DNA of 64,000 nt from Thioalkalivibrio sp. AKL19 (GTDB lineage Bacteria; Pseudomonadota; Gammaproteobacteria; Ectothiorhodospirales; Ectothiorhodospiraceae). Made by a program: the position numbers and the translations under genes. This document shows, piece by piece, positions 39,820-54,037 of the stretch. The stretch's first letter is position 1. Each line of letters starts with the position of its first letter. Under the pieces are notes generated by a model that did not search any database, had not been told where the DNA came from, and worked only from the letters and a program-made list of their open reading frames with translations. The stretch covers positions 1 through 64,000 of the forward strand of contig NZ_ATUK01000002.1 of NCBI RefSeq assembly GCF_000420165.1. The letters run 5' to 3'.

Positions 39820-40341
39820 CTACGCCTCGACCACCAGCTGCTGGAACAGTCCGCCCAGGATCACCAGGGCAAAGCCCGCGTACAGGCCGGCGACCACGTC
39901 GTCCATCATGATGCCGTGGCCGTCCTGCCACTTGTGGTCGAAGTAGTTCGCGGGCCAGGGCTTGAGGATGTCGAACACCCGGAACAGCAGGAAGCCGACA
40001 ACCACCCACATGAGTCCCGCCGGCGCGAAGGCCAGCGTGATCAGCATGCCCGCCCATTCATCCCAGACGATGCCGGGATGATCGTGCACCCCCAGCTTGC
40101 GCGCGCTCTCGCCGCAGATGTGGAACCCGGCCATCACCACGATCACGGTGATCGCGATATAGGCCCATTCGGGGAAATTCATGATCGCGAAGTACAGCAC
40201 CAGCGCGCCCAGCGAACCGGTGGTCCCCGGGGCCCAGCGCGACAGACCACTGCCGAAACCGAACGCCAGCAGGTGGATCGGATCGCCGAAAACGGTCTTC
40301 GCCGACGGCATCTGCGGTTTGCGGATCTTCTGCTCCGACAT
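39820..40341 (-). CDS. pgpA: Phosphatidylglycerophosphatase A PgpA
   Basis: This 173-residue inner-membrane enzyme dephosphorylates phosphatidylglycerol phosphate. Family elements are ATGFGSGLSRWAPGTTGSLG-like sequence near residue 25 (here FGFGSGLSRWAPGTTGS) and the metal-binding DEWAGMLI and MDDVVAGLYAG segments. It is last in the ribH-nusB-thiL-pgpA series, 13 bases after thiL. Confidence 0.93.
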   Translation of the reverse strand: MSEQKIRKPQMPSAKTVFGDPIHLLAFGFGSGLSRWAPGTTGSLGALVLYFAIMNFPEWAYIAITVIVVMAGFHICGESARKLGVHDHPGIVWDEWAGMLITLAFAPAGLMWVVVGFLLFRVFDILKPWPANYFDHKWQDGHGIMMDDVVAGLYAGFALVILGGLFQQLVVEA

Positions 40342-40354
40342 GGCTCCCCTGTCC

Positions 40355-41365
40355 CTAGTGTTTTTCGGTGTCCGCGAAATGATCGTGGCCCGCCCGCGCC
40401 ACGTCCAGTCGCTGCCCGTCCGTGTCCTCGACGACCACCTCGTCGCCGGTGGTGCATTCCCCGATCACCGTCAGCGGTACATCGACGCTGAACGCCAGCA
40501 GATCGAGTGACTCTCCCGCCGGGAGGGCGAACAGCAGTTCGTAATCCTCGCCACCGCCGAGCGCGTGGTCGCGCGCCTGCGCATCGGGCACCTCTGCCAG
40601 CAACGGATCGCGGGGGATCGCCGGCCAGTCGATCCGCGCCCCACAACCCGAGGCCGCACACAGATGCCCCAGGTCCGCCAGCAGGCCGTCGGAGATGTCG
40701 ATCGCCGCGCGGGCCCGGTTGCGCAGGCCGCGCCCCAGTGCCAACCGTGCCCGGGGCCAGAACAGCCGCTCGCAGGCCGGATCACCGGCATCGGCGGGCG
40801 GCATGTCACCTGCGACGCCCCGCGCCCGCCGGGCGGTCTCGTGGGTCAGCCCGAAGGCCGCCCCACCCAGCGCACCGGAGACCACAAGACGATCCCCGGG
40901 CCGGGCGCCGTCACGCCGCAGGGCCTGGCCCGCGGGCACGGCCCCCAGCACGGTCACGCTGATCGCCAGCGGGCCGCGGTTGGTATCCCCGCCGACCAGC
41001 GGAATCCCGGCCTCCCCGGCCAGGGCCAGGAAGCCCTCGCTGAAGCCCGCGAGCCAGCCATGATCCACCCGTGGCAGGGTCAGCGACAGCACGGCGCCCA
41101 GCGGGTCGGCGCCCATCGCCGCCAGGTCGCTGAGGTTGGAAGCCAGGGCCTTGTGGCCGACGCTCGCCGGGGGGTGATCGGGAAAGAAGTGGGTGCCCTC
41201 GACCAGGGTATCGACGGTGACGACCAGTTCGTGGCCGCCCGGAATGCCCAGCAGGGCGGCGTCGTCGCCGATACCAAGCCGGACGCCTTCGGCAGACGCT
41301 GCGGCCGCCGCAGGCGCGCCGAAATAGCGCCGGATCAGCTCGAACTCGGAATCGGGGCCGGTCAT
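40355..41365 (-). CDS. thiL: Thiamine-monophosphate kinase ThiL
   Basis: This 336-residue enzyme phosphorylates thiamine phosphate to the diphosphate cofactor. Motifs include GIGDDAAL, VTVDTLVEGTHFF, the metal/nucleotide loop GGDTNRGP and the C-terminal DISDGLLADLGH. Start 41365 lies 26 bases after the nusB stop; longer in-frame sequence upstream is a shadow of nusB. Confidence 0.95.
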   Translation of the reverse strand: MTGPDSEFELIRRYFGAPAAAAASAEGVRLGIGDDAALLGIPGGHELVVTVDTLVEGTHFFPDHPPASVGHKALASNLSDLAAMGADPLGAVLSLTLPRVDHGWLAGFSEGFLALAGEAGIPLVGGDTNRGPLAISVTVLGAVPAGQALRRDGARPGDRLVVSGALGGAAFGLTHETARRARGVAGDMPPADAGDPACERLFWPRARLALGRGLRNRARAAIDISDGLLADLGHLCAASGCGARIDWPAIPRDPLLAEVPDAQARDHALGGGEDYELLFALPAGESLDLLAFSVDVPLTVIGECTTGDEVVVEDTDGQRLDVARAGHDHFADTEKH

Positions 41366-41391
41366 GGCCGTGGTGCTGATCCCGCCCGAGG

Positions 41392-41919
41392 TCAGCGCGG
41401 CGCGGAGCGCTCGGGACCGCGCAAGTCGGCGGAGAGCCGGTCCAGCACGCCGTTGATGTAGCGATGCGACTGCTCGGCGCCGTAGCGCTTGGCGAGATCG
41501 ACGGCCTCGTTGATCACCACGCGGTAAGGCACCTCGAAGCGCTCGGCCAGCTCCCACTGCCCCAGCCACAGCAGGGCATGCTCCACCGGATCGAGCTGAT
41601 CCAGCGGGCGACCCAGATACGGCTCCATACGGGCATCCAGCGCCTCGCGGTCGCGGGTCACGCCGATCAGGAGTTCGCGGAAGTACTCGGCATCGGCCTT
41701 GGCGTGTTCCTCGTCGTCGCGGAACTCGGCCAGGATGTCCTTGGGGTGAGCCCCGGTCATCTGCCAGGAATACAGCGCCTGCATGGCCCGACGCCGCGCG
41801 AACGAGCGCGCATGCCGCGCCCGCTGCTCGGGCGTGCTGCGCGGACGCTTGCCGCGCGAAGCGCCCGCGCCCTTGGCTGCCGGACGATCGGATTGGGAGG
41901 GATTGCCGGGTTCGGTCAC
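41392..41919 (-). CDS. nusB: Transcription antitermination factor NusB
   Basis: This 175-residue all-helical protein acts in rRNA antitermination with NusE. Core elements are ARRRAMQALYSWQMTG, LDPVEHALLWLGQWEL and YRVVINEAVDLAKRYGAEQSH (family C-terminal helices). A GTG at 41919 is taken as start, since it is the only in-frame start between the ribH stop and the core; it gives a basic N-terminal extension of about 40 residues. Confidence 0.93.
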   Translation of the reverse strand: MTEPGNPSQSDRPAAKGAGASRGKRPRSTPEQRARHARSFARRRAMQALYSWQMTGAHPKDILAEFRDDEEHAKADAEYFRELLIGVTRDREALDARMEPYLGRPLDQLDPVEHALLWLGQWELAERFEVPYRVVINEAVDLAKRYGAEQSHRYINGVLDRLSADLRGPERSAPR

Positions 41920-41942
41920 GTCGGATTCGCGCTCGTGTTCGC

Positions 41943-42428
41943 TCAGGAACCGCCGCGCAGCTTGCGCATCAGGCTGACCATCTCGATCGCGCCCATCGCG
42001 GCATCCGCGCCCTTGTTGCCGGCCTTGGTCCCGGCGCGTTCGATCGCCTGCTCGATGGAGTCGGTCGTCAGCACGCCAAAGCTGATCGGCAGGTCCTCGG
42101 CCATCTGCACCTGCGCCAGGCCCTTGGCCGCCTCGCCGGCGACGTAGTCGAAATGCGGTGTGGAGCCGCGAATCACGCAGCCCAGGGCAATCACGCCATC
42201 GTACTGCCCGGAGCGCGCCATGGCCTGCGCCGCCAGCGGCAATTCGTAGGCACCCGGCACGCGGGCGATGGTCAGGTTCTTTTCCTGCGCCCCGTGGCGC
42301 TTCAGGGTATCCACCGCGCCTTCCAGCAGGCGCTCGACGATCAGGCTGTTGAAGCGCGCCAGCAGCAGGCCATAACGGTGATCGGCAACGTCGATGAAGT
42401 CGCCTTCCAGGGTCTTGATCTCGGACAT
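41943..42428 (-). CDS. ribH: 6,7-dimethyl-8-ribityllumazine synthase RibH
   Basis: This 161-residue enzyme makes lumazine, the direct precursor of riboflavin. The catalytic His92 lies in GSTPHFDYV, and [10 protein letters not shown] is the substrate region. It is separated from the other rib genes (ribD, ribE, ribBA) by the 5.9-kb DAB cluster, although all are on the same strand. No FMN riboswitch is seen in the 209 bases upstream. Confidence 0.95.
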
Positions 42429-42637
42429 GGTGTAATTCCGGTTGGGACAAGGCCGGGCCGCACGCCCGGGATGGTGGATACAGGAAGCCCAGAACGAATC
42501 GCGCGTTCGCGGGGATCCCTCCATGTTTCAACGCGCGACATCGGCTCGGGCGTGATCGTGCGATGGGTTCAGAACCGCCCTAGTGTAGCGCACCCGGAGC
42601 AGGCATCGTAGGACCCGGGCGAGACAAGCCGGCGCGA

Positions 42638-42964
42638 TCACCCCTTGAACTTCACCAGCCGGCTGACCTGGATATCCGAGATAAACACGACGCCGCTGTG
42701 CTTGTTGAAGAACGGGGTAAAGCCCTCGAGGATCGGCTCCACCAATTCCTCGGGCACGGCGGCGATGATCATGATCAGTACCTCGTCCTCGTTGAACATC
42801 AGGTGCCCCTCGTGGAACCCCTGGCTCCCCTTTCCGGAGAGGTTGCCGATGATCGTGTAGCCCTTGACGCCGGCCCGGTCGAGCAGATCGGTGGCAAAGG
42901 CCTGGTGCTCACCCTCGAGGATGATCTCGAGCTTTTTCAGTGGATTGAGATTCAGGTCATTCAT
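42638..42964 (-). CDS. PII-like protein of the DAB inorganic-carbon cluster
   Basis: This 108-residue protein has the PII fold: strand KKLEIILEGEHQAFATDLL, then GVKGYTIIGNLSGKGSQGF where the T-loop begins, and the C-terminal segment SGVVFISDIQVSRLV. It overlaps dabA by four bases and is thus probably co-translated. PII-like proteins next to DUF2309 genes are known as carboxysome/transport-associated CPII proteins; regulation of DAB by nucleotides or bicarbonate is an inference. It is clearly different from the SbtB-like protein at 37.7 kb. Confidence 0.85.
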   Translation of the reverse strand: MNDLNLNPLKKLEIILEGEHQAFATDLLDRAGVKGYTIIGNLSGKGSQGFHEGHLMFNEDEVLIMIIAAVPEELVEPILEGFTPFFNKHSGVVFISDIQVSRLVKFKG

Positions 42965-45900
42965 GAAGGGGCCCCCTCCGCAGCAGATTCGTCAGTTGCA
43001 TCGCGCCCGGCATCCGGCAGGGCTTCCTCGCGCCACTCGCCCTCCACGAACCGGTATAACCGATCCGTCGCGGGATCCAGGATCATGACCAGAATCCAGC
43101 CATTGACGACCAGGCTCCTGACCTTGGCGACACCCTCGATCGCCGCACGGGCATGTTCGAAAGGGGCCTCGACCAGGGTCAGCAGGCGCACCGGGTCATG
43201 GTAGGGCCAACCATCCTGCAACACCGTTTGCGAGGGGAGTCCGGTACGCAGGTCACTGAGGTTCCCGGTGATGACGCCCAGGCGGCAGGCCACGTTGTGG
43301 TACACCTTGCTGCCGCTGCCGTAGCGTTCGTTGTCGACCGCCGAAAAGTAGTGCTCCATGTTGATCCACTGGGCGACCACCAGCGGGCCGGTCAGGATGC
43401 TCTCGAGCAGGCGTCCCCGGGGGTCGAGCCGGTAGTCGTAGGAATGCAGGAAGGCTCGGCCCTCGAGGTCCGAGGCCTCGGTCAGGTGGCGACGCCCGAT
43501 AATGAAACCGGCGTTGCGCGCCAGTCCCCATTCGGGGCGCACCTGCGCCCAGTCCACGGTGTTGCGCTCGGCGATGCGCGCGGCCCGGATCGGGTCGGGT
43601 TCGGGTGCGCCTTCTGGCAGCAGCGTCGGCACACGCTCGGCCGCACACCGGCGCTTCGCCGCATGCAGCCCGTTGCGCAGACGTTCCAGGTAGACGAGGT
43701 GGCTGGCCGGCAGCAGGTCCAGGTCGTGTAGCTGGATCTGGTCGGAGGTGGTGTTGTGAAACGCCGGCAGGAACCAGGCATCGTCCGGGATGTGGATGCC
43801 CTGCTGTCGTATGCGGCGGCGCACCGCCGGCTTGTTGGCCATGTGCGCGAGGACCCGGGCGCTGACAAGCCCGTGGCTGCCGCCGCACGCACCGCAGTCG
43901 AGTGCCGACTCGTAGGGATTGTTGTGCGAATGGCTGCCGTGGCCCGTGAGGATGACGAAGCGCGAGAACCCTTCGGTCAGGCCGATCGAGCGCAGCGCCT
44001 GGGCCACGAAGTAGGTCTGTTCCTCGAGCGAGAAGCCAATCCGGCCCAGGCGCTCGAGCTGCATCTGGGCGTAGGAACGGTTGATACGATAGTCGCCCTG
44101 CAGCGTCCTGATGAACCTGGATTCCGCGCTCTCGCTCAGGGCGAAGTCACGCGCGAACTGGGTCTGCCCCGCGTGGTTCTCCATCGCCGCCTCACGCAGT
44201 TCGCGAATCATCGCATCGGTGATCGACTCTCGTTCGATACCGAATTCCTTGTGAATCGCCTCGACGATAATCACCCGCTGGAGGGCACGAACGACCGAGT
44301 CCGCCTGCTCGCGGGTGAGCTTGTCGACCAGCAGCCGCGTCGAGGGCTTGTCGGTCTCGATCTTGTGGCGCCAGCGATTGTAGGCGCGCGGGGCGATGGT
44401 CTTGCCGACCAGGTCGAACCCGAACAACAGACCGATCGCCTCCACCGTGAAGTAGGGCGAGAGCACCGAGTGCTTGAGGTCGTGCAGTAGATGCTCGGCC
44501 GACGAGTACAGATCGGTATCCAGCTTTTCGGCGCCCGTGCTCACCTCGAGCACGAGGTTTTTCGGCGTGACCACCACGGGGCATAGATGGTCCTCGCTCC
44601 CCTTGCCGAGCGCGATGAAACTGACCGGCACGCCGAAGAAGCCGGCAATGCCGTAGGTCTGATAATCGCCGATGGTCTCGAGCTGGCGGCGGATCCGTTC
44701 GGAGCGTACATCGATACAGAACAGCAGTTGCGCGAACGGCCGCTTGGCACGCGGCGCGGGCGGCTCCCAACGCAGCCTGGCGAGCAGTGAATGGCGATAC
44801 CCCGCCTCCATGGCCTCCAGCCAGATCATGCCCTCGCGCTTCTCGAACGCGGCCAGTTCGTCGAGCACCCGGCCCAGATGATCCCGGTCAAGCTGGCGGA
44901 AGGCCTCCGGCATGCCGGCGAGTTCCGCCAGATCGTCGAGTGCCCGGGCCTGACGCTCGCTCTCGACGCGGCGCCGGGCCGGCACATACCGGCCGAGCAG
45001 CGTGGCGACCTCGGCCGGGCGGCCGCGGGCGACGACATCCTCGACGCGCTCGGCCAGCGGCGGGAGCACCACACCGGTAAACAACTCGTGGCGCAGGTAG
45101 CACTCGGCCGGGCGCTCGGTGATCAGGGTATCGAGCTCGGTTCGGTTGCCGGGCATCCGCCAGCGCGACGCGTGCTCGCGGACGAGCGCCAGCGCCAGAA
45201 CCAGGCGAATGGCCAGAAAGTCCACCAGATCGGCGGGATACTCCCGGGCCCAGTAGTAGTGGCTGGTCGTCGCACGCCAGCGGATGAAGCCGGCCCAGCC
45301 ATGCAGGTGGGTCAGTTCGCGCGCAATCAGGTCCGGCCAGGCCTCCTCGGGGATGCCCAGTTCGTCGAGGATGAAGGCGATGACCCCCTCGGGCGAATCG
45401 GCCTGCCCCACGATCCTGTGCACGTGCAGCCCGCGCAGGAACAACCGCAGATTGCGCCGTGCCAGGCGGCTCCAGGCGGTAAACAGCCCCTTCTCCCGGC
45501 CCGGCATCTGCCAGGCAGACTGGCCCTCGTCGAAGAAATCCAGGCAGGTCTTGATCAGGAGCTCGTCGAGCGTCTCGCCGGTCCGGGTACCGAACAGCGC
45601 GTCCAGCACCTCGTAAAACGGTCGTTCGGGCGGAAAGGCTCCGCGCAGCTGGTCGGCGAGTGCCTCGACATTCACGCCATGCGGCGCCTGCGGTGCCTCG
45701 CCCGCCAGTGTTGCCGCGACGTCATCGAGACTCGCGAATGCGCGTTGACAGGTTACCGGATCACGGCGGCGGGTCAGCAGGGCATGGATCAGCGCGTTGC
45801 CGTCGATCGATTGCAGGGCCGGATACTCGCCAACGGTCGCGTGAATGCTGGCCTCCAGCGAATCGCGATCGACCCGCCCAAGGGCGAGCCACTGCTGATA

Positions 45901-46098
45901 GTCGGCACGCTTCAGGAAGCCGCGCCCGTGGAACAGCGCCTCGCCCTGCGCGACCGCTTCGGGGAACGGCAGATCCTCCAGCCCGTGCAGCGGGTTGTGG
46001 TGGATGAAGGTACGCATGGGCCAGAGGTTCGGGATCGGCTCGGCGGCCATGTGCACCATCGACCGGATCTTCAGTCGGCGTCCAAGGGAAAGGTTCAC
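42961..46098 (-). CDS. dabA: DabA, carbonic-anhydrase-like subunit of DAB inorganic-carbon transporter
   Basis: This 1045-residue DUF2309 protein is the long form of DabA. The zinc site of the beta-carbonic-anhydrase-like core is present: Cys461 and Asp463 in LFCIDVRSER, His720 in LTGHGSHSHNNP and Cys735 in SALDCGACGG, the same spacing as the site defined in Halothiobacillus DabA2. It would hydrate CO2 vectorially, driven by proton flow through the NuoL-like DabB. It overlaps the gene before and after it by four bases each. Confidence 0.93.
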   Translation of the reverse strand: MNLSLGRRLKIRSMVHMAAEPIPNLWPMRTFIHHNPLHGLEDLPFPEAVAQGEALFHGRGFLKRADYQQWLALGRVDRDSLEASIHATVGEYPALQSIDGNALIHALLTRRRDPVTCQRAFASLDDVAATLAGEAPQAPHGVNVEALADQLRGAFPPERPFYEVLDALFGTRTGETLDELLIKTCLDFFDEGQSAWQMPGREKGLFTAWSRLARRNLRLFLRGLHVHRIVGQADSPEGVIAFILDELGIPEEAWPDLIARELTHLHGWAGFIRWRATTSHYYWAREYPADLVDFLAIRLVLALALVREHASRWRMPGNRTELDTLITERPAECYLRHELFTGVVLPPLAERVEDVVARGRPAEVATLLGRYVPARRRVESERQARALDDLAELAGMPEAFRQLDRDHLGRVLDELAAFEKREGMIWLEAMEAGYRHSLLARLRWEPPAPRAKRPFAQLLFCIDVRSERIRRQLETIGDYQTYGIAGFFGVPVSFIALGKGSEDHLCPVVVTPKNLVLEVSTGAEKLDTDLYSSAEHLLHDLKHSVLSPYFTVEAIGLLFGFDLVGKTIAPRAYNRWRHKIETDKPSTRLLVDKLTREQADSVVRALQRVIIVEAIHKEFGIERESITDAMIRELREAAMENHAGQTQFARDFALSESAESRFIRTLQGDYRINRSYAQMQLERLGRIGFSLEEQTYFVAQALRSIGLTEGFSRFVILTGHGSHSHNNPYESALDCGACGGSHGLVSARVLAHMANKPAVRRRIRQQGIHIPDDAWFLPAFHNTTSDQIQLHDLDLLPASHLVYLERLRNGLHAAKRRCAAERVPTLLPEGAPEPDPIRAARIAERNTVDWAQVRPEWGLARNAGFIIGRRHLTEASDLEGRAFLHSYDYRLDPRGRLLESILTGPLVVAQWINMEHYFSAVDNERYGSGSKVYHNVACRLGVITGNLSDLRTGLPSQTVLQDGWPYHDPVRLLTLVEAPFEHARAAIEGVAKVRSLVVNGWILVMILDPATDRLYRFVEGEWREEALPDAGRDATDESAAEGAPS

Positions 46099-46847
46099 AG
46101 GGCACCTCCGGTCCAGGCCAGGCCGCCGGCCACGATCACCCCGATCAGCAGGGAAAGCCCCCAGGCCGCAAGGACGGTCAGATCAGCCGCGATCGGGCCG
46201 CTGCGCGGACCGAACACCGTACCCTCCAGTAGTCGCACGCCCGCCCAGCTCCATAGCAGCCAGGTCAGCAGGATGCCGATCGCCATCCAGAGTGTCGCCC
46301 CGCCCAGCACAGCCAGAAGGGCGAAGAAGCCCGGGAACAGCGGCAGGGCCATGGCCGCAAGCGTGGTCACCACAATCACCCCGGACAGCCGCGGAAGATC
46401 CCGGGCAAGTCCACCGTGCAGGCCGGTGTAGGCGGCCTCGAGGCGAGTCGTAAGCGCCGCACACACCAGCAGCATCAGCACCGGAGCGACCGTCAGGGCC
46501 AGGGTGAAGGCAACGAGATTCGCCACACCCGGCGTCTGCAGGGCATACAGCCAGGCCAGCGGCCAGGCGGAACTGGCCAGCATGGCGCTCCAGCGGCCCA
46601 CTTCCCGCACGGTCAGCATCCGGAAGGCGTACAGGAGCGCGCTGAGCAGCGCCCAGGCCGCAATCAGCCCCGGCGCCACCGCAAGATCGCTCCACAGGAT
46701 CAGCAGCACCCCGATCTGGGGCCAGAGGACGAACAGGGCCAGCCGCACCCCAAGGTGGTCATTGGCGGCTGCCAGCCTGTTGAACACGACACTGGCCGGA
46801 AACAGGGGAAGAAAGAATGCCGCGAGGACCAGCAGGAGAATGGACAT
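46095..46847 (-). CDS. Membrane protein between dabB and dabA, NuoM/NuoN C-terminal-like
   Basis: This 250-residue, very hydrophobic protein has about eight membrane helices. The last third, with PLFPGFFALLAVLGG and the ending GVRLLEGTVFGP, resembles the C-terminal part of NuoM/MrpD-type antiporter subunits, including the conserved FFGP-like end. The two-gene DAB system described experimentally contains only DabA and DabB, so this looks like an additional subunit. It starts one base after the dabB stop and overlaps dabA by four bases, which implies coupled expression. Confidence 0.75.
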   Translation of the reverse strand: MSILLLVLAAFFLPLFPASVVFNRLAAANDHLGVRLALFVLWPQIGVLLILWSDLAVAPGLIAAWALLSALLYAFRMLTVREVGRWSAMLASSAWPLAWLYALQTPGVANLVAFTLALTVAPVLMLLVCAALTTRLEAAYTGLHGGLARDLPRLSGVIVVTTLAAMALPLFPGFFALLAVLGGATLWMAIGILLTWLLWSWAGVRLLEGTVFGPRSGPIAADLTVLAAWGLSLLIGVIVAGGLAWTGGAL

Positions 46848-46848
46848 G

Positions 46849-48531
46849 TCAGCTCCACCTCAACCAGACATTCAGGCGCTTCGAGAGATCCAGCAGCCGG
46901 GCCGTCACGCGCTCGCAAACGTCGGCGACATACAGTTCGCGCGAGAACAGCGAGTACAGGATCAGCCAGGTGCTGCCGTTGCCCTCGTCGGCGGGCGGGC
47001 GACGCACCCGGGTGAAGTAGGCGCCCATCCAGCCAAGCACCATGATGATGGCCAGCAGGACCACCAGCATGTTGAAGGTGAGCTCATGGATGCTGGCGGC
47101 CGAGTAGAGCGCGGCGCGGAACGCCGCATCGGGGTACAAAAAGGCTTCGAAGGTATGCCCGACAACCACGTAGCCCACCACGACCACCGTGAACGACAAG
47201 ATGATCAGCGCCATCATGCGCAGCGGGTTTTCGGTGTCCAGACGATAGGCCGAGAACAGGACCTGGACACCGGCCACCCAGCCGAAGAACAACAGGACAA
47301 TGGCGCCCTGCTGCTGGAAGAAGTCCTGCGCGGCCCAGGCGTGGACCATCACCAGAATGGCCAGCGGCACAATCAGCGTAACCGCCGCAATCATCAGCCA
47401 CGGCAGGCGGGTTGGAGCGGACTTGCGCTCGACCAGGAAGTCGTAGAGCGGCTCGTTGGGAACGCCGTCGTGCCGGCGCGCGGCATTGATGACATTCCCC
47501 GCGTTGAGAAACAGCGTCCCCTTGAACACCCCGTGGGCGATGAGATGAAAGATCGCCAGGGCAAAGGCCCCGGCGCCGGCCTCCATCACCATGAAGCCCA
47601 TCTGCCCCATGGTGGAGTAGCCCAGCGCCTTCTTGATGTCGTTCTGGGTGAGCATCAGCACCGATCCGATCAGCGCCGTCAACAGCCCCACCACGAACAA
47701 CAGATGCAGGATCTCGCTGCTGTGGACAAAGACCGGGGCAAACCGATTGATGATGATGCCGCCGGCATTCACGATGCCCGCATGCATCAGGGCCGAAACC
47801 GGTGTCGGGCCCTCCATGGTGTAAGGCAGCCAGACATGCAGCGGGAACTGGGCCGACTTGGCGAAGGCGGCCAGGGCCACCAGAAAGGCCACGCTGCCGG
47901 TAACCGGGAGATCCATGAACGTGCGGGCGTCCGGCATCGCGGCGATGCGCTCGAACAGGGTGGGGAAATCCAGCACGCCATAGGTCTGAAACAGGATCAC
48001 CGCCGCCAGGACCAGCGGCAGATCCCCCAGCCGGTAGGCAATGAATGTCCAGAATGCGTACCGCTGCGTGCGAGGAGGCTCGGTGTTGTGCCCGAGCAGG
48101 AAGTAGAGCATCACCCCGATCAGGTGCCAGGCCACCAGCAATGTAATCAGGTCACCGGCCACGACCATGAGCAGGATCGACCCGGTCATCAGGTCGAGCA
48201 GCATGAAGAAGCGCCCGTACCCGGGCTCCTCGACCATGTAGCGGACCGAGTAGATGTGCACGACCAGGCTGATGCCCGAGACCACCAGCGCCATGATCGC
48301 GCTCAGCGGATCGATCTGAAGGCTGACCCAGCCGCCCGCCAGGGCCGCCCACTGGGGCCCGGTGTCCGCCGCGATGTAGTGAAACAGCTGGTAGGCCGCG
48401 AGGATCACGACGACCAGGTTGAGCGCCACGCTGAGGCGTGCGACCTGCTGACCCGGCCGACCCGAAAGGAGGTGCACCAGCAGCGCTGCGACAAAGGGCA
48501 GCAGGGGTATCAGCCACTGGAGCTCGATCAT
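46849..48531 (-). CDS. dabB: DabB, NuoL-like proton-channel subunit of DAB transporter
   Basis: This 560-residue polytopic protein is homologous to NuoL/MrpA. It has the proton-channel segments HLIGVMLYFLLGHN, AFAKSAQFPLHVWLPYTM (conserved Lys) and PTPVSALMHAGIVNAGG. With DabA it forms the energy-coupled CO2-to-bicarbonate trap. First gene of the four-gene cluster; 288 bases separate it from ribBA upstream, without a clear promoter match. Confidence 0.92.
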   Translation of the reverse strand: MIELQWLIPLLPFVAALLVHLLSGRPGQQVARLSVALNLVVVILAAYQLFHYIAADTGPQWAALAGGWVSLQIDPLSAIMALVVSGISLVVHIYSVRYMVEEPGYGRFFMLLDLMTGSILLMVVAGDLITLLVAWHLIGVMLYFLLGHNTEPPRTQRYAFWTFIAYRLGDLPLVLAAVILFQTYGVLDFPTLFERIAAMPDARTFMDLPVTGSVAFLVALAAFAKSAQFPLHVWLPYTMEGPTPVSALMHAGIVNAGGIIINRFAPVFVHSSEILHLLFVVGLLTALIGSVLMLTQNDIKKALGYSTMGQMGFMVMEAGAGAFALAIFHLIAHGVFKGTLFLNAGNVINAARRHDGVPNEPLYDFLVERKSAPTRLPWLMIAAVTLIVPLAILVMVHAWAAQDFFQQQGAIVLLFFGWVAGVQVLFSAYRLDTENPLRMMALIILSFTVVVVGYVVVGHTFEAFLYPDAAFRAALYSAASIHELTFNMLVVLLAIIMVLGWMGAYFTRVRRPPADEGNGSTWLILYSLFSRELYVADVCERVTARLLDLSKRLNVWLRWS

Positions 48532-48819
48532 CGATTCACCATTGTCGGCTCACCTCCCGCTCATCGAGCTTAGCAGGAAGATTCCTACATAGTGGATGAC
48601 CTTTTCGACCGGGAACACGCCGCGTCAAACCCCCGGCAGGATTCCCCCTCCGGTCGTGGCCGTCCGCCGGTCACGCCGGCGGCCGCAGCGCCTTGCGGAC
48701 TTCGTGGGGATTTGCCGCCCGGACGGCGGGCGGACACTGCGCCGCGGGGGCCGCAGCAACCAGCCCTCATCCGCGTCGTCCCGCCAGTCGCAGTGCCCGG
48801 CACCCGCGACCGGGAGCGA

Positions 48820-49926
48820 CTACTCGTGAACGTAGTCGACCACCTCGAGGCCGAAGCCCCCGAGGCCGTGGAAGCGCTTGGGCGCGGACATCAGCTGCAT
48901 GCGACCCACGCCGCAGTCGGCCAGGATCTGCGCGCCAATGCCGTACATGCGCCATTCGGCCGAGTTCTCGCGACCGCTGCTCTCCTCCGGCGCGGGCTGT
49001 CCGATATGCTCCAGACGCTGGGCCAGGGCCTCCGCGCTCTCGTGCTTGCGCAGAACCACCACGACGCCCTCGCCCGCCTCGTCGATCCGGCGCAAGGCAT
49101 CATCCAACGGCCAGCCACGATCCGGGCCGGCATAGCCGAGCGTGTCGTACAGGGTGCTCTCCAGATGCACCCGCACCAGGGTGTCCTTGTCCGGTTTCGG
49201 CTCGCCACGCACCAGGGCGAAATGCAGTTCGTGGTCCACCTCGTCCTCGAAGGCCAGCAGACGAAACTCGCCATGCTCGGTCGGGAAGGGACGCTCGGAC
49301 ACCCGCCGGACCGTCTTCTCGTTCTCGATGCGGTAGCGGATGAGGTCCTCGATCGTTCCCATTTTCAGGTCGTGCTCGGCGCAGAACCGTTCGAGATCGG
49401 ATCGCCGCGCCATGCTGCCATCCTCGTTCAGGATCTCGACGATCACCGCAGCCGGCTCGGCCCCGGCCAGGCGCGCGAGATCACAGCCGGCCTCGGTATG
49501 CCCGGCGCGCACGATCACCCCGCCCGGCTGCGCCATCAGCGGGAACACGTGGCCCGGCTGGACGATGTCCTCGGGCTTCGCATTGGGCGCCACGGCGGTG
49601 CGAATGGTGTGCGCGCGATCGTAGGCGGAGATGCCGGTGGTCACGCCCTCGGCCGCCTCGATCGACAGCGTGAAGTTGGTGCCGTGCACATCGTTGGTAT
49701 CGGTCACCATCAATGGCAGCGCCAGCTGCTTGCAGCGTTCGCGGGTCAGCGTCAGGCAGATCAGTCCGCGGCCGTACTTGGCCATGAAGTTGATGTCCTC
49801 GGGCCGCGCGTGCGAGGCCAGCATCAGCAGATCGCCCTCGTTCTCGCGGTCTTCGTCATCGACGATGACCACCATGCGTCCGGCCTGAAGCTCTTCCAGG
49901 ATGGTTTCGGTATCGGAAAATTCCAT
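48820..49926 (-). CDS. ribB: RibB with degenerate GTP cyclohydrolase II-like domain (RibBX type)
   Basis: This 368-residue protein has an N-terminal 3,4-dihydroxy-2-butanone 4-phosphate synthase domain (residues 1-205) with intact DDEDRENEGDL and RAGHTEAGCDLARL motifs. The C-terminal domain has the GTP cyclohydrolase II fold but lacks the three zinc cysteines (the RCDCG motif is replaced by STLYDTLGYAGPDRG), so it should be inactive in GTP hydrolysis. Such RibBX hybrids are known in proteobacteria. A real ribA must lie elsewhere. It is 24 bases after ribE. Confidence 0.9.
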   Translation of the reverse strand: MEFSDTETILEELQAGRMVVIVDDEDRENEGDLLMLASHARPEDINFMAKYGRGLICLTLTRERCKQLALPLMVTDTNDVHGTNFTLSIEAAEGVTTGISAYDRAHTIRTAVAPNAKPEDIVQPGHVFPLMAQPGGVIVRAGHTEAGCDLARLAGAEPAAVIVEILNEDGSMARRSDLERFCAEHDLKMGTIEDLIRYRIENEKTVRRVSERPFPTEHGEFRLLAFEDEVDHELHFALVRGEPKPDKDTLVRVHLESTLYDTLGYAGPDRGWPLDDALRRIDEAGEGVVVVLRKHESAEALAQRLEHIGQPAPEESSGRENSAEWRMYGIGAQILADCGVGRMQLMSAPKRFHGLGGFGLEVVDYVHE

Positions 49927-49950
49927 AGATTCCTGCTTTCGGCCGCGCGA

Positions 49951-50637
49951 CTAGTCGCGCGAACCGGAGTGATTGGGAAAACCCTGTTCGGCCAGCCAGG
50001 CCTCAGACAGATCGCCCGCCTGCCCGCCCGGCTCGGCCGCGCGATCGCCCAGCATCAGGCGTTCCAGATAGCGAGCGATCAGGTCCACCTCGAGGTTGAC
50101 CGGCGTGCCCACCGCGTACACGGCAAACCGGGTCAGGGACCAGGTGTGCGGGATAATGTTGACCTCGAACTCGGCGCCATCCACCCGGTTCACGGTCAGG
50201 CTGGTGCCGTCGATGGTAATCGAGCCCTTGGCCGCGATGTAGCGGGACAGGGCCGCCGGCGCCCGGAAGCGCACGCGGGTGGAGCGCGCGTCGGGTTCCA
50301 TCGCCACCACCTCGCCCACGCCATCGACATGTCCGGACACCATGTGCCCTCCCAGGCGGTCACCCAGGGCGAGCGCGCGTTCCAGGTTCACCCGGTCACC
50401 CGGACCGAGACGGCCCAGCGTGGTGACTTCCAGCGACTCGCGCGAGACGTCGGCGGCAAAAAAGCCATTGCCCGGTAGATCGGTCACCGTCAGGCAGACC
50501 CCATTGACCGCGATGGAATCCCCCAGTCGGGTATCCGAGAGGTCCATCCCGCTCGCATTGACGTCCAGCCGCACATCGCCCCCGCTGGGGGTGAGGCGCT
50601 CCAGGCTGCCAAGGGTCTCGATGATTCCGGTAAACAT
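49951..50637 (-). CDS. ribE: Riboflavin synthase alpha subunit RibE
   Basis: This 228-residue protein dismutates two lumazines to riboflavin. It has two tandem lumazine-binding barrels, starting MFTGIIETLG and again after the HMVSGHVDGVG segment, with the paired motifs SIAVNGVCLTV and SITIDGTSLTV. The start at 50637 is the family start. It is followed closely by ribBA. A candidate promoter lies about 100 bases upstream. Confidence 0.96.
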   Translation of the reverse strand: MFTGIIETLGSLERLTPSGGDVRLDVNASGMDLSDTRLGDSIAVNGVCLTVTDLPGNGFFAADVSRESLEVTTLGRLGPGDRVNLERALALGDRLGGHMVSGHVDGVGEVVAMEPDARSTRVRFRAPAALSRYIAAKGSITIDGTSLTVNRVDGAEFEVNIIPHTWSLTRFAVYAVGTPVNLEVDLIARYLERLMLGDRAAEPGGQAGDLSEAWLAEQGFPNHSGSRD

Positions 50638-50989
50638 GGATGTCCACTCGTTCGGGCACGCCCGCGATCGCAACGCCGGGCTACAGGCCGCCCATCATAG
50701 GGAAACGCTAATCAATTCGCACCACGACCCGGGCGTTTATAGTGGCAACGCCGGTCCTCGCAAGTCCTTCAAGGGCCATCACGAAGCCACGAAGCAGGTC
50801 AATGGCGATTACAGATCGGAAGGCCTTGGAACGAAGCCGAACAGGGGGCCCTATGGTTTATCCAGAGCCGAGGCGTTGGATTGCCGCGCCTCGAGCTCCA
50901 TCATCCTCCCCGTCTTCCTGTCGATCGCTCTTGCTACTTGCCCTGCCCGCTCTTCCTGTCGTCGTGCGCTTCGTGATGCAAACAAGCCC
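50638..50989. other. 352-base intergenic region between ribD and ribE
   Basis: I find no credible gene here; short frames on either strand have no family features. It holds a promoter candidate for ribE and a short degenerate repeat ACGAAGCCACGAAG (about 50780-50793). The conserved core sequences of the FMN riboswitch are not present. Confidence 0.6.
50736..50763 (-). promoter_or_regulatory. Candidate sigma-70 promoter for ribE-ribBA
   Basis: On the minus strand TTGCGA (50763-50758) and TATAAA (50741-50736) are 16 bases apart. The -10 matches five of six consensus positions. The resulting leader would be about 90 bases. This explains expression of ribE separately from ribD despite the 352-base gap. 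Confidence 0.5.
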
Positions 50990-52165
50990 TTACGAACGCG
51001 GACGGGCACGCAGGCGCAGAGTGTCGCCGACCCAACGGCTGTCGACGACCTCGAGTTCGGCCCGATCCGCCATGCGCGCCAGCGGCCATTCCACCAGCGG
51101 GCGGGCACTGGAACCCAGCAGCAGAGGCGCCTGGTAGATCAGCCATTCGTCCACCCAGCCCCCGCGGGCCAGTGCCCCCGCCAGGCCGGGGCCGGATTCC
51201 ACGTGCAGCTCGTTGATCTCGGCGCGTCCCAGCTCATTCAGCACGGCGCCCAGATCCAGACCGCCCTCGGCCGATTCCTCCGCCAACGGCACGGCCCGCA
51301 CCTCGGCACCCTTGCCGCGCAGCGCGTCCGCCGCGGGCGAGCCCACGACGTCCGGGCCCGTAAGGATCCAGACCGTCCCCTCGCGCAGGATCTGCGATCC
51401 CGGCGGCGTACGCAGGCGGGCATCCACGATCACCCGCAAGGGCTGACGCCCGGGCAGGTCGTGATAGTGCGGGTCGTCGGGGAAGCCGGCGTGGACGGCC
51501 AGTTCGGGCGGCTTCATCCGCACGTTCAGGCGCGGGTCGTCGCCGACCACGGTACCGCTGCCGGTCAGGATCGCCCCAGCGCGTGCGCGCCACAGCTGCA
51601 CGTCACGGCGCGCCGCCTCGCCGGTAATCCACTGCGACTCGCCGGAGGCCATGGCCGTGCGCCCGTCGAGGCTTGCCGCCAGCTTGACCCGCACCCAGGG
51701 GCGGCCGTGGACCATGCGCTGGACGAAGCCGGGGTTCAGGGCCCGCGCCTCGGCCTCCAGCACCCCGCTGTCGACCTGGATGGCCGCCGCCTGTAGCGCC
51801 CCGACGCCGCTCCCGCAGACCTGCGGGTTAGGATCCTGCATCGCGATCACGACCCTCGCCACACCCGCCCGGATCAACGCATCGGTACAGGGCGGGGTAC
51901 GGCCGTGATGGCTGCAGGGCTCCAGGGTGACATAGGCGGTCGCGCCCCGGGCGGCCTCGCCGGCTGCCTGCAGGGCGTTCACCTCGGCATGCGGATCGCC
52001 GGCCTTCCAGTGCAGGCCGGCACCGACCTCGCGGCCATCGCGCACAATCACACAACCCACCCGCGGGTTCGGATCGGCGGTGAACCGGCCGTAGTCCGCC
52101 AGTTTCAGGGCGCGAGCCATGTGACGGCGGTCGGCGATCGCCTGCTCGGTCGTGGGCGTCTCCAT
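50990..52165 (-). CDS. ribD: Bifunctional riboflavin deaminase/reductase RibD
   Basis: This 391-residue enzyme deaminates and then reduces the pyrimidine intermediate of riboflavin synthesis. The N-terminal deaminase zinc site is His59, Glu61 (GDPHAEVNAL), Cys84 and Cys93 (LEPCSHHGRTPPC). The C-terminal reductase domain begins near RPWVRVKLAASLDGRTA. Its start shares one base with the nrdR stop (TAATG). Confidence 0.95.
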   Translation of the reverse strand: METPTTEQAIADRRHMARALKLADYGRFTADPNPRVGCVIVRDGREVGAGLHWKAGDPHAEVNALQAAGEAARGATAYVTLEPCSHHGRTPPCTDALIRAGVARVVIAMQDPNPQVCGSGVGALQAAAIQVDSGVLEAEARALNPGFVQRMVHGRPWVRVKLAASLDGRTAMASGESQWITGEAARRDVQLWRARAGAILTGSGTVVGDDPRLNVRMKPPELAVHAGFPDDPHYHDLPGRQPLRVIVDARLRTPPGSQILREGTVWILTGPDVVGSPAADALRGKGAEVRAVPLAEESAEGGLDLGAVLNELGRAEINELHVESGPGLAGALARGGWVDEWLIYQAPLLLGSSARPLVEWPLARMADRAELEVVDSRWVGDTLRLRARPRS

Positions 52166-52746
52166 TACTCCCCCTTCTCCGAGCCGCTCCCGGTCTCCGG
52201 GGTGGCCCGTCCATCCGCTGTCGGTTCCGGGGCGATGCCGGTCGCCTCCTCGTCGATCAGGCGCATCTGCGACCGGCGCATCTCCGGGCTGAGATCTTCC
52301 TCCAGCCGTTCGATCGCCTCGCGGAAGGACTGCACGCTGGCGAAGCTGAGATAGATGGAGGCAAACCGGATATAGGCCACATGGTCCAGCCCGTGCAAGG
52401 CCGCCAGCACCATTTCGCCGATCCGGTCGGACTTCACCTCGGGGGCGGTGAGCGCCGAGAGCTGGCGCTTGATATCGTCGATCACCCACTCGACATCGTC
52501 GGTCTTCACCGGGCGCTTGTGCAGTGCCCGGCGCAGACCGCTGCGCAGCTTTTCCTCGTCGAAAGCGACCCGTTCGCCGGAACGCTTGACCACCCGCGGC
52601 AGGCTGAACTCCGCCCGCTCGAAGGTGGTGAAGCGCGCGCCGCAGGCGCGGCACTGACGCCGGCGCCGGATCTGTTCCTGCTCCGGGCCGGCCACCCGCG
52701 AATCGACCACGCGGGTGTCCTGGTCATGACAGGACGGACAGCGCAT
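52165..52746 (-). CDS. nrdR: Transcriptional repressor NrdR
   Basis: This 193-residue protein represses ribonucleotide reductase genes in response to ATP/dATP. It has an N-terminal zinc ribbon with Cys3, Cys6, Cys32 and Cys35, followed by an ATP-cone starting near VVKRSGERVAFDEEKL. It is about 30-40 residues longer than typical NrdR because of an acidic, low-complexity C-terminal tail. Position between glyA and ribD is the usual one. Confidence 0.95.
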   Translation of the reverse strand: MRCPSCHDQDTRVVDSRVAGPEQEQIRRRRQCRACGARFTTFERAEFSLPRVVKRSGERVAFDEEKLRSGLRRALHKRPVKTDDVEWVIDDIKRQLSALTAPEVKSDRIGEMVLAALHGLDHVAYIRFASIYLSFASVQSFREAIERLEEDLSPEMRRSQMRLIDEEATGIAPEPTADGRATPETGSGSEKGE

Positions 52747-52777
52747 CGCAAACCGTCAGCCCGGCGCCCGGCCGGAA

Positions 52778-54037
52778 TTATTCGCCGGCGCCGTACACCG
52801 GGAAGCGACGGCAGATCTCCAGCACCTTTTCGCGCGTCGCGTCGATCACCTGCTCGTTCTCGACATCGTCCAGCACGTCGGCGATCCAGCCGGCCAGTTC
52901 GCGGGACTCGGACTCGGTGAAGCCACGGGTGGTCAGCGCGGCCGTACCAATGCGGATGCCAGAGGTGACGAACGGGGACTGCGGGTCGTTCGGGACCGCG
53001 TTCTTGTTGACCGTGATGTTGGCACGCCCGAGCGCGGCGTCCGCCGCCTTGCCCGTGATGCCCTTGGCAACCAGGCTCAGCAGGAACAGGTGGTTATCGG
53101 TACCACCGGAGACGATGTCGAAGCCGCGTTCGACCAGCACCTCGGCCATCGCGCGGGCATTGGCGATCACCTGCTTCTGGTAGGTCTTGAATTCCGGCTC
53201 CAGCGCCTCCTTGAACGCCACCGCCTTGCCAGCGATGACGTGCATCAGCGGGCCACCCTGGGTGCCCGGGAAGATCAGCGACTGGAACTTCTTGTTCAGT
53301 TCCGGCTGGCCCTTGGAGATGATGAAGCCGCCACGCGGCCCGCGCAGGGACTTGTGCGTGGTGGAGGTGACCACGTGGGCGTGGTCGATCGGGTTGGGGT
53401 ACTCGCCGGCGGCAATCAGGCCGGAGACGTGGGCCATGTCGACCATCAGGTAGGCACCCACGGAATCGGCGATCTCGCGGAAGCGCTTCCAGTCCACCAC
53501 GCGCGAATAGGCGGAGAAGCCGGCCACGATCATCTTCGGCTGGTTCTCGGTGGCCAGGCGCTGGACCTCGTCGTAGTCGATCAGGCCTTCGTCGGTGATG
53601 CCGTACTGCACGGCGTTGTAGATCTTGCCGGAGAAGTTCGGCTTGGCGCCGTGGGTCAGGTGGCCGCCCGCGTCCAGGCTCATGCCCAGCACGGTGTCAT
53701 GCGGCTGCAGCAGGGCCATGTAGACCGCGGCATTCGCCTGCGAGCCGGAATGCGGCTGCACGTTGGCATAGTCGGCACCATAGAGCTGCTTCAGGCGGTC
53801 GATCGCCAGCTGCTCGACCACATCGACATGCTCGCAGCCACCGTAGTAACGCTTGCCCGGGTAACCCTCGGCGTACTTGTTGGTCAGCACCGAGCCCTGC
53901 GCCTCCATCACGCGGGGGCTGGTGTAGTTCTCCGACGCGATCAGCTCGATGTGCTCTTCCTGGCGCTGCGCCTCGTTGCGGATCGCGTTCCAGAGTTCGT
54001 CATCGTAGCCGTTGATGCTCATGTCGATCGAAAACAT
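52778..54037 (-). CDS. glyA: Serine hydroxymethyltransferase GlyA
   Basis: This 419-residue PLP enzyme interconverts serine and glycine with tetrahydrofolate. The PLP lysine is Lys229 in [27 protein letters not shown] and [11 protein letters not shown] are the conserved substrate and PLP regions. The ATG at 54037 has a good ribosome-binding site (GGGAGA). In this organism it would also consume glycine from photorespiratory salvage, linking it to the aminotransferase at 62 kb. Confidence 0.97.

Follow-up and report, generated by a model that had tools for sequence, protein, structure and literature searches.

A half-length NuoM-like protein lacking proton-relay residues as the probable third membrane subunit of the DAB1-type complex in Thioalkalivibrio sp. 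AKL19

Introduction

The DAB2 complex of Halothiobacillus neapolitanus is a proton-driven vectorial carbonic anhydrase with a NuoL-like membrane subunit, DabB2. The periplasmic half-channel is formed in part by a finger of DabA2, whose residue Glu444 is contributed by DabA to the proton path of DabB (PMC13144422). DAB2 works without any further subunit, whereas DAB1 of the same organism was described as a three-subunit complex containing the small hypothetical transmembrane protein Hneap_0908 (PMC13144422). The DAB1 plasmid which rescued carbonic anhydrase-free Escherichia coli carried dabAB1 together with the interstitial gene, which was named as a member of the mrpA family, PF00361 (PMC7714395). 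The operons containing ybcC (dabA) were sorted into those with LysR, those with PII and those with NuoM or a sulfate permease, and it was proposed that the number of ions moved rises with the number of membrane subunits; the passage of that paper dealing with ybcC operons does not mention the small protein (PMC5700660). In the related respiratory complex I, a Glu-Lys ion pair is found at every interface between antiporter-like subunits, and proton release by the intact enzyme uses the interface of Nqo12 and Nqo13, the homologues of NuoL and NuoM (PMC11496545). Here we describe the counterpart of the small protein, designated X, in a 64,000-nucleotide stretch of Thioalkalivibrio sp. AKL19 (the window).

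Results

Gene arrangement and neighbouring subunits

The X gene (46095..46847, minus strand) starts with ATG and encodes 250 amino acids; the coordinates and gene junctions given in the first-pass annotation were correct. The order on the minus strand is dabB, X, dabA and a gene for a PII-like protein, with one 1-nt gap and two 4-nt overlaps. The dabB gene (46849..48531, minus strand) encodes a predicted NuoL-like proton-conducting membrane subunit of 560 amino acids (PF00361, E 2.5e-50; PF00662). It ends at 46849, and the single base 46848 separates it from the ATG of X. The TGA of X and the GTG start of dabA share four bases (GTGA, 46095-46098). The long-form DabA of 1045 amino acids (42961..46098, minus strand; PF10070, 857.6 bits) is overlapped by 4 nt by the last gene of the module, which encodes the PII-like protein of 108 amino acids (42638..42964, minus strand; PF00543, E 1.4e-21). 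Shine-Dalgarno-like stretches were read upstream of the ATG of X (GGAG) and of the GTG of dabA (GGAGGT).

This arrangement, dabB-X-dabA, is already known. DAB1 of H. neapolitanus (hneap_0907, 0908, 0909) has the same order of dabB, small membrane protein, long dabA and PII-like gene, and X is the ortholog (46% identical) of the gene between dabB1 and dabA1. The initial assumption that the described DAB complex consists of DabA and DabB only was therefore incomplete, as a three-subunit DAB1 is in print (PMC13144422). The two modules differ in their surroundings: in an H. neapolitanus metagenome-assembled genome (MAG), the DAB1 module lies beside carboxysome genes and a ParA-like and a VWA-domain (CbbO-like) gene, whereas the module in the window is embedded in a riboflavin gene cluster (39820-54037). 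According to inspection of the translations, glyA, nrdR, ribD, ribE and ribBA lie upstream of it and ribH, nusB, thiL and pgpA downstream. Such riboflavin-type neighbours were found at only one of 80 further loci described below, that of Thioalkalivibrio sp. ALE14. The closest named isolate relatives of the module are Thioalkalivibrio strains. A contig titled Halomonas sp. MAG encodes an X protein 95% identical to that of the window and is possibly misassigned or the result of transfer.

Both flanking subunits retain the residues assigned to function in DAB2. DabB of the window matches DabB2 (PDB 9rd0_B), and its channel residues H250, K300, S306, H329, H333 and K337, the same as those listed for DabB2, are invariant in 27 relatives. 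The position of the NuoL TM5 Glu, which forms the interface ion pair, is occupied by His in 21 of 27 DabB proteins from loci with X and by Ile in DabB2 (PMC13144422). In DabA, the zinc-site residues C461, D463, H720 and C735, aligned to DabA2 (PDB 9rd0), are invariant in 25 relatives, and Glu553 (codon 44440..44442, minus strand), the counterpart of the DabA2 finger Glu444 by alignment to 9rd0_A, is likewise invariant. The window thus combines a small membrane protein between DabB and DabA, as in DAB1, with the catalytic and finger residues of DabA. The differences from DAB2 are the two-subunit composition of the latter, its short DabA and the absence of X.

Distribution of X and its pairing with DabA

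By gene order, the DabA loci of the class fall into three kinds: 34 with a short DabA behind DabB, 42 with X (X-type, the window included) and 16 with DabA in front of DabB; 5 further loci were unassigned. X was present between DabB and DabA at 42/42 X-type loci, which represent one clade of long DabA, and at none of the 34 short DabB-DabA loci or the 16 loci with DabA before DabB. Although the X-type loci were defined by the presence of X, it holds independently of this definition that every long DabA behind DabB was accompanied by X, and the X-type DabA proteins formed one group on a tree built without X. The extra row in this group is a fragment at a contig edge, with its X on another contig beside the rest of dabA. 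A further 80 X loci came from a separate collection of gamma-, beta- and alphaproteobacteria; X is flanked by DabA and DabB at all of them except one, where the contig ends before DabB, and some of the genomes also belong to the first set.

The open reading frame between dabB and dabA noticed in the first-pass annotation is therefore a real gene, with orthologs in the same place at 122 loci, the window included. Strong matches to X (at least 220 bits) were found in 36 of 369 genomes, all adjacent to a DabA match, and the next best match among the 369 reached 33 bits. Matches of 33 bits or less were mostly full-length proteins of about 500 amino acids, and several of these were NuoM-like subunits from DAB loci of the third kind. 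The co-occurrence of X and DabA in the 369 genomes was significant (Fisher p 3e-27, shared ancestry being ignored). In the genus of the window, in which the module is patchy, DabA was found in 8 of 30 genomes and X in the same 8.

A search of the 122 loci for natural fusions between X and either DabB or DabA, which would have been indirect evidence of contact, found none. One open reading frame of 928 aa is apparently just a long extension that overlaps DabB in a different frame. At two Thiocystis loci and, similarly, at eight others, DabA is apparently split into one piece of, in the clearest cases, about 170-220 amino acids and another of about 920; at the two Thiocystis loci, the open reading frames overlap by about 4-9 nt, as would be expected of a true gene fission. 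Five loci have both kinds of module side by side, the X-type one being preceded by a short DabB-DabA pair at a distance of a few kb. In Nitrosomonas eutropha, two 1046-aa DabA open reading frames were found near one X and one DabB.

The PII-like gene adjoins DabA at 41/42 X-type loci, 0/32 short (DAB2-kind) loci and 0/16 NuoM-type loci (those with DabA before DabB) with room to see it. The long DabA proteins of X-type loci also have a stretch of their own following the finger (about residues 586-690; 44029..44343, minus strand, by column occupancy in each group). It is filled in all X-type DabA and mostly absent from short and NuoM-type DabA, and it is predicted to be helical and hydrophilic, with model pLDDT mostly about 60-86. 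The model of DabA is of low confidence (mean pLDDT 69.9, below 50 in the finger region), and no conclusion on contacts is drawn from it. The segments near residues 91-150 and 316-420 are common to both long kinds of DabA.

The third kind of locus corresponds to the NuoM-DabA-NuoL clusters, clade C of PMC5700660. They share with the window a long DabA having the segments in its first half and a NuoM-family protein adjoining DabA, and differ in that this protein is full-length with an intact relay, that DabA precedes DabB, that the post-finger segment is mostly missing and that there is no PII-like gene. At ten of these loci, a full-length NuoM-like protein with an intact relay is followed by a long DabA of about 1100 amino acids and then usually by a NuoL-like DabB, and one genome has further antiporter-like genes. 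One 950-aa DabA was found after a SulP-type permease and before Mrp E, F, G and MbhD/MbhE-like genes.

X corresponds to the C-terminal half of NuoM

The first-pass annotation likened X to the C-terminal part of NuoM/MrpD antiporter subunits, a likeness which is weak for a single sequence and clear for profiles and fold. The single sequence gave a weak family match (NCBIfam NuoM, E 0.003) and no match in Pfam; PF00361 was not found up to E 1 and the gathering score was not reached. The ortholog from the H. neapolitanus MAG gave no PF00361 match up to E 0.001, so that both proteins stay below the family label assigned to the interstitial gene in PMC7714395. Neither single-sequence nor profile searches against PDB sequences gave anything useful. 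In contrast, an X profile built from an alignment with 42 relatives matched a NuoM-like profile (hhalign, E 2.6e-6) over the last 120 residues of the NuoM-like proteins, whereas two DabB sets were not matched (E 0.07 and 0.41).

The AlphaFold2 model of X was confident (pLDDT 93.6, pTM 0.91), and all of it superposes on residues 223-487 of E. coli NuoM (Z 24.8, rmsd 2.5 A, 249 residues), i.e. from the broken helix TM7 to the C-terminus (TM14). The best VIA-align match was bovine chain M (Z 29.1, whole chain), and Foldseek pointed to the same family. Judged by the predicted fold, X represents a NuoM-type subunit reduced to its C-terminal half; the fold of antiporter-like subunits (Proton_antipo_M, NuoM/MrpD) is present for this half only. 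With complex I NuoM it shares the helix breaks in the places of TM7 and TM12, a conserved Arg, the PR motif and the terminal Asp, and it differs from NuoM in being half a subunit, in the loss of the relay Lys, His and Glu and in the missing PF00361 match. The NuoM proteins of NuoM-type DAB clusters scored highest as a group in similarity to X (up to 29.9 bits), and a 508-aa protein encoded on another contig of one genome gave 28.2 bits. X may descend either from the NuoM of these clusters or from complex I NuoM.

Loss of proton-relay residues

The relay residues K221, K252, H308, H334 and E393 do not vary among the NuoM-like subunits of other DAB clusters. Their counterparts were read from the columns of 109 distinct X sequences; the column mapping, based on weak profiles, is in places uncertain by a few residues, and no relay-type residue is conserved nearby. 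Residues 12-19 of X (FLPLFPAS; 46791..46814, minus strand) match the NuoM TM7 motif K-M-P-I-F-P-L-H in the profile alignment, the TM7 Lys (K221) being replaced by Phe12 (or Leu) and the His by Ser19. The counterpart of the TM8 Lys falls in positions 42-46, which are all non-ionisable; that of H308 is Ala91 (Ala94 in an alternative mapping), that of H334 is Leu, Phe or Met118 and that of the TM12 Glu, E393, is Met or Leu177. The last residue lies in the counterpart of the broken helix TM12 (residues 152-182; 46302..46394, minus strand; hhalign and columns), which keeps the PR...P..F motif and has a predicted helix break at 166-171.

Independently of the mapping onto NuoM, no Lys or His is conserved across the 109 sequences. 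The well-conserved ionisable columns are R35, R76, R81, E/D82, R135, R153, R205 and D222. Their positions are in loops and at, or close to, the ends of helices, except for R205 (Arg in 71/109), the sole interior one, five residues from a helix end. The only conserved acids, E/D82 and D222, are both outside helix interiors. The residues common to X and NuoM are structural: the P-x-F-P break, R76, the PR motif, P169 and D222.

Discussion

We propose, with a probability of about 0.6, that DAB1-type vectorial CO2-hydrating complexes contain X as an obligate third membrane subunit. In this reading, X is a reduced NuoM which has lost its relay, and the complex would have a single proton path. The genetic association of X with this DAB type appears obligate, which makes a subunit role likely, although adjacency and co-occurrence with DabA and DabB do not prove binding. 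The basic chemistry does not need X, since DAB2 works without such a subunit.

In complex I, NuoM packs with its C-terminal half on the N-terminal half of NuoL. By analogy, X would most likely be a structural or gating subunit docked beside DabB, packing on its N-terminal half in the same manner, and not a canonical second proton path. In this position, it may shield or tune the lateral face and the ion-pair region of DabB, and it could also assist in seating the long DabA, which has an extra helical segment; stabilisation of long DabA by X is possible. X accompanies one of two long DabA clades, and the other usually has a complete NuoM-like subunit. The protons driving CO2 hydration would pass via DabB and the DabA finger and not through X. 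More speculatively, X might be a gutted, non-conducting half-antiporter which acts as a gate or clamp on DabB, DAB1 then consisting of one working and one pseudo antiporter subunit tuned via the PII-like protein and the DabA segment; we put this version forward only tentatively.

The strict pairing of X with a single DabA clade having an extra helical segment could also reflect an assembly or stability factor for long DabA or DabB that is no permanent part of the working complex. Such a stabiliser would be useful, as the DAB2 heterodimer was reported to be highly unstable during purification (PMC13144422). However, the conserved residues at helix breaks and helix ends and the close junctions on both sides of the gene fit a stoichiometric subunit at least equally well, and we consider the assembly factor rather unlikely. 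The presence of the PII-like gene beside DabA at 41 of 42 X-type loci, against none of the 48 loci of the short or NuoM type where it could have been seen, would suit a membrane receptor linking the PII-like protein to the pump for regulation. This is an unlikely role for X: almost the whole of its model consists of membrane helices, a soluble domain is absent, and the PII-like protein could equally well target the extra segment of DabA.

The first-pass annotation suggested that X might add a second proton path, in which case more than one proton would be used per CO2 hydrated. The homology of X to NuoM, the complete NuoM-like subunit with all relay residues in other long-DabA clusters and the link between the number of membrane subunits and of ions proposed for ybcC operons (PMC5700660) are in line with this suggestion. 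The sequences of X count against it: the half comprising TM1-6 is missing, the relay counterparts are Phe, Ser, Ala, Leu/Phe/Met and Met/Leu, without a conserved Lys, His or Glu, and the conserved acids E/D82 and D222 lie outside helix interiors. A second path through X is thus very improbable. That X is a hitch-hiking operon gene with no part in DAB is hardly credible: DAB2 needs no such protein (PMC13144422), but X was found at 122/122 loci of this kind in three proteobacterial classes and never alone.

Neither the identity of X as half a NuoM with a lost relay nor its strict pairing was found in the literature searched, to which Desmarais 2019 and Schmid 2021 did not belong. In that literature, the third DAB1 protein has been named only as a small hypothetical transmembrane protein or appears as an unnamed mrpA-family gene. 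DAB pumps are candidate tools for introducing CO2 concentration into other organisms, and the reconstitution of a CO2-concentrating mechanism in E. coli made use of DAB1. Identification of X as half a NuoM without the relay gives this protein a concrete, testable role, and X would represent a natural experiment on the effect of a non-conducting half of an antiporter subunit on its neighbour.
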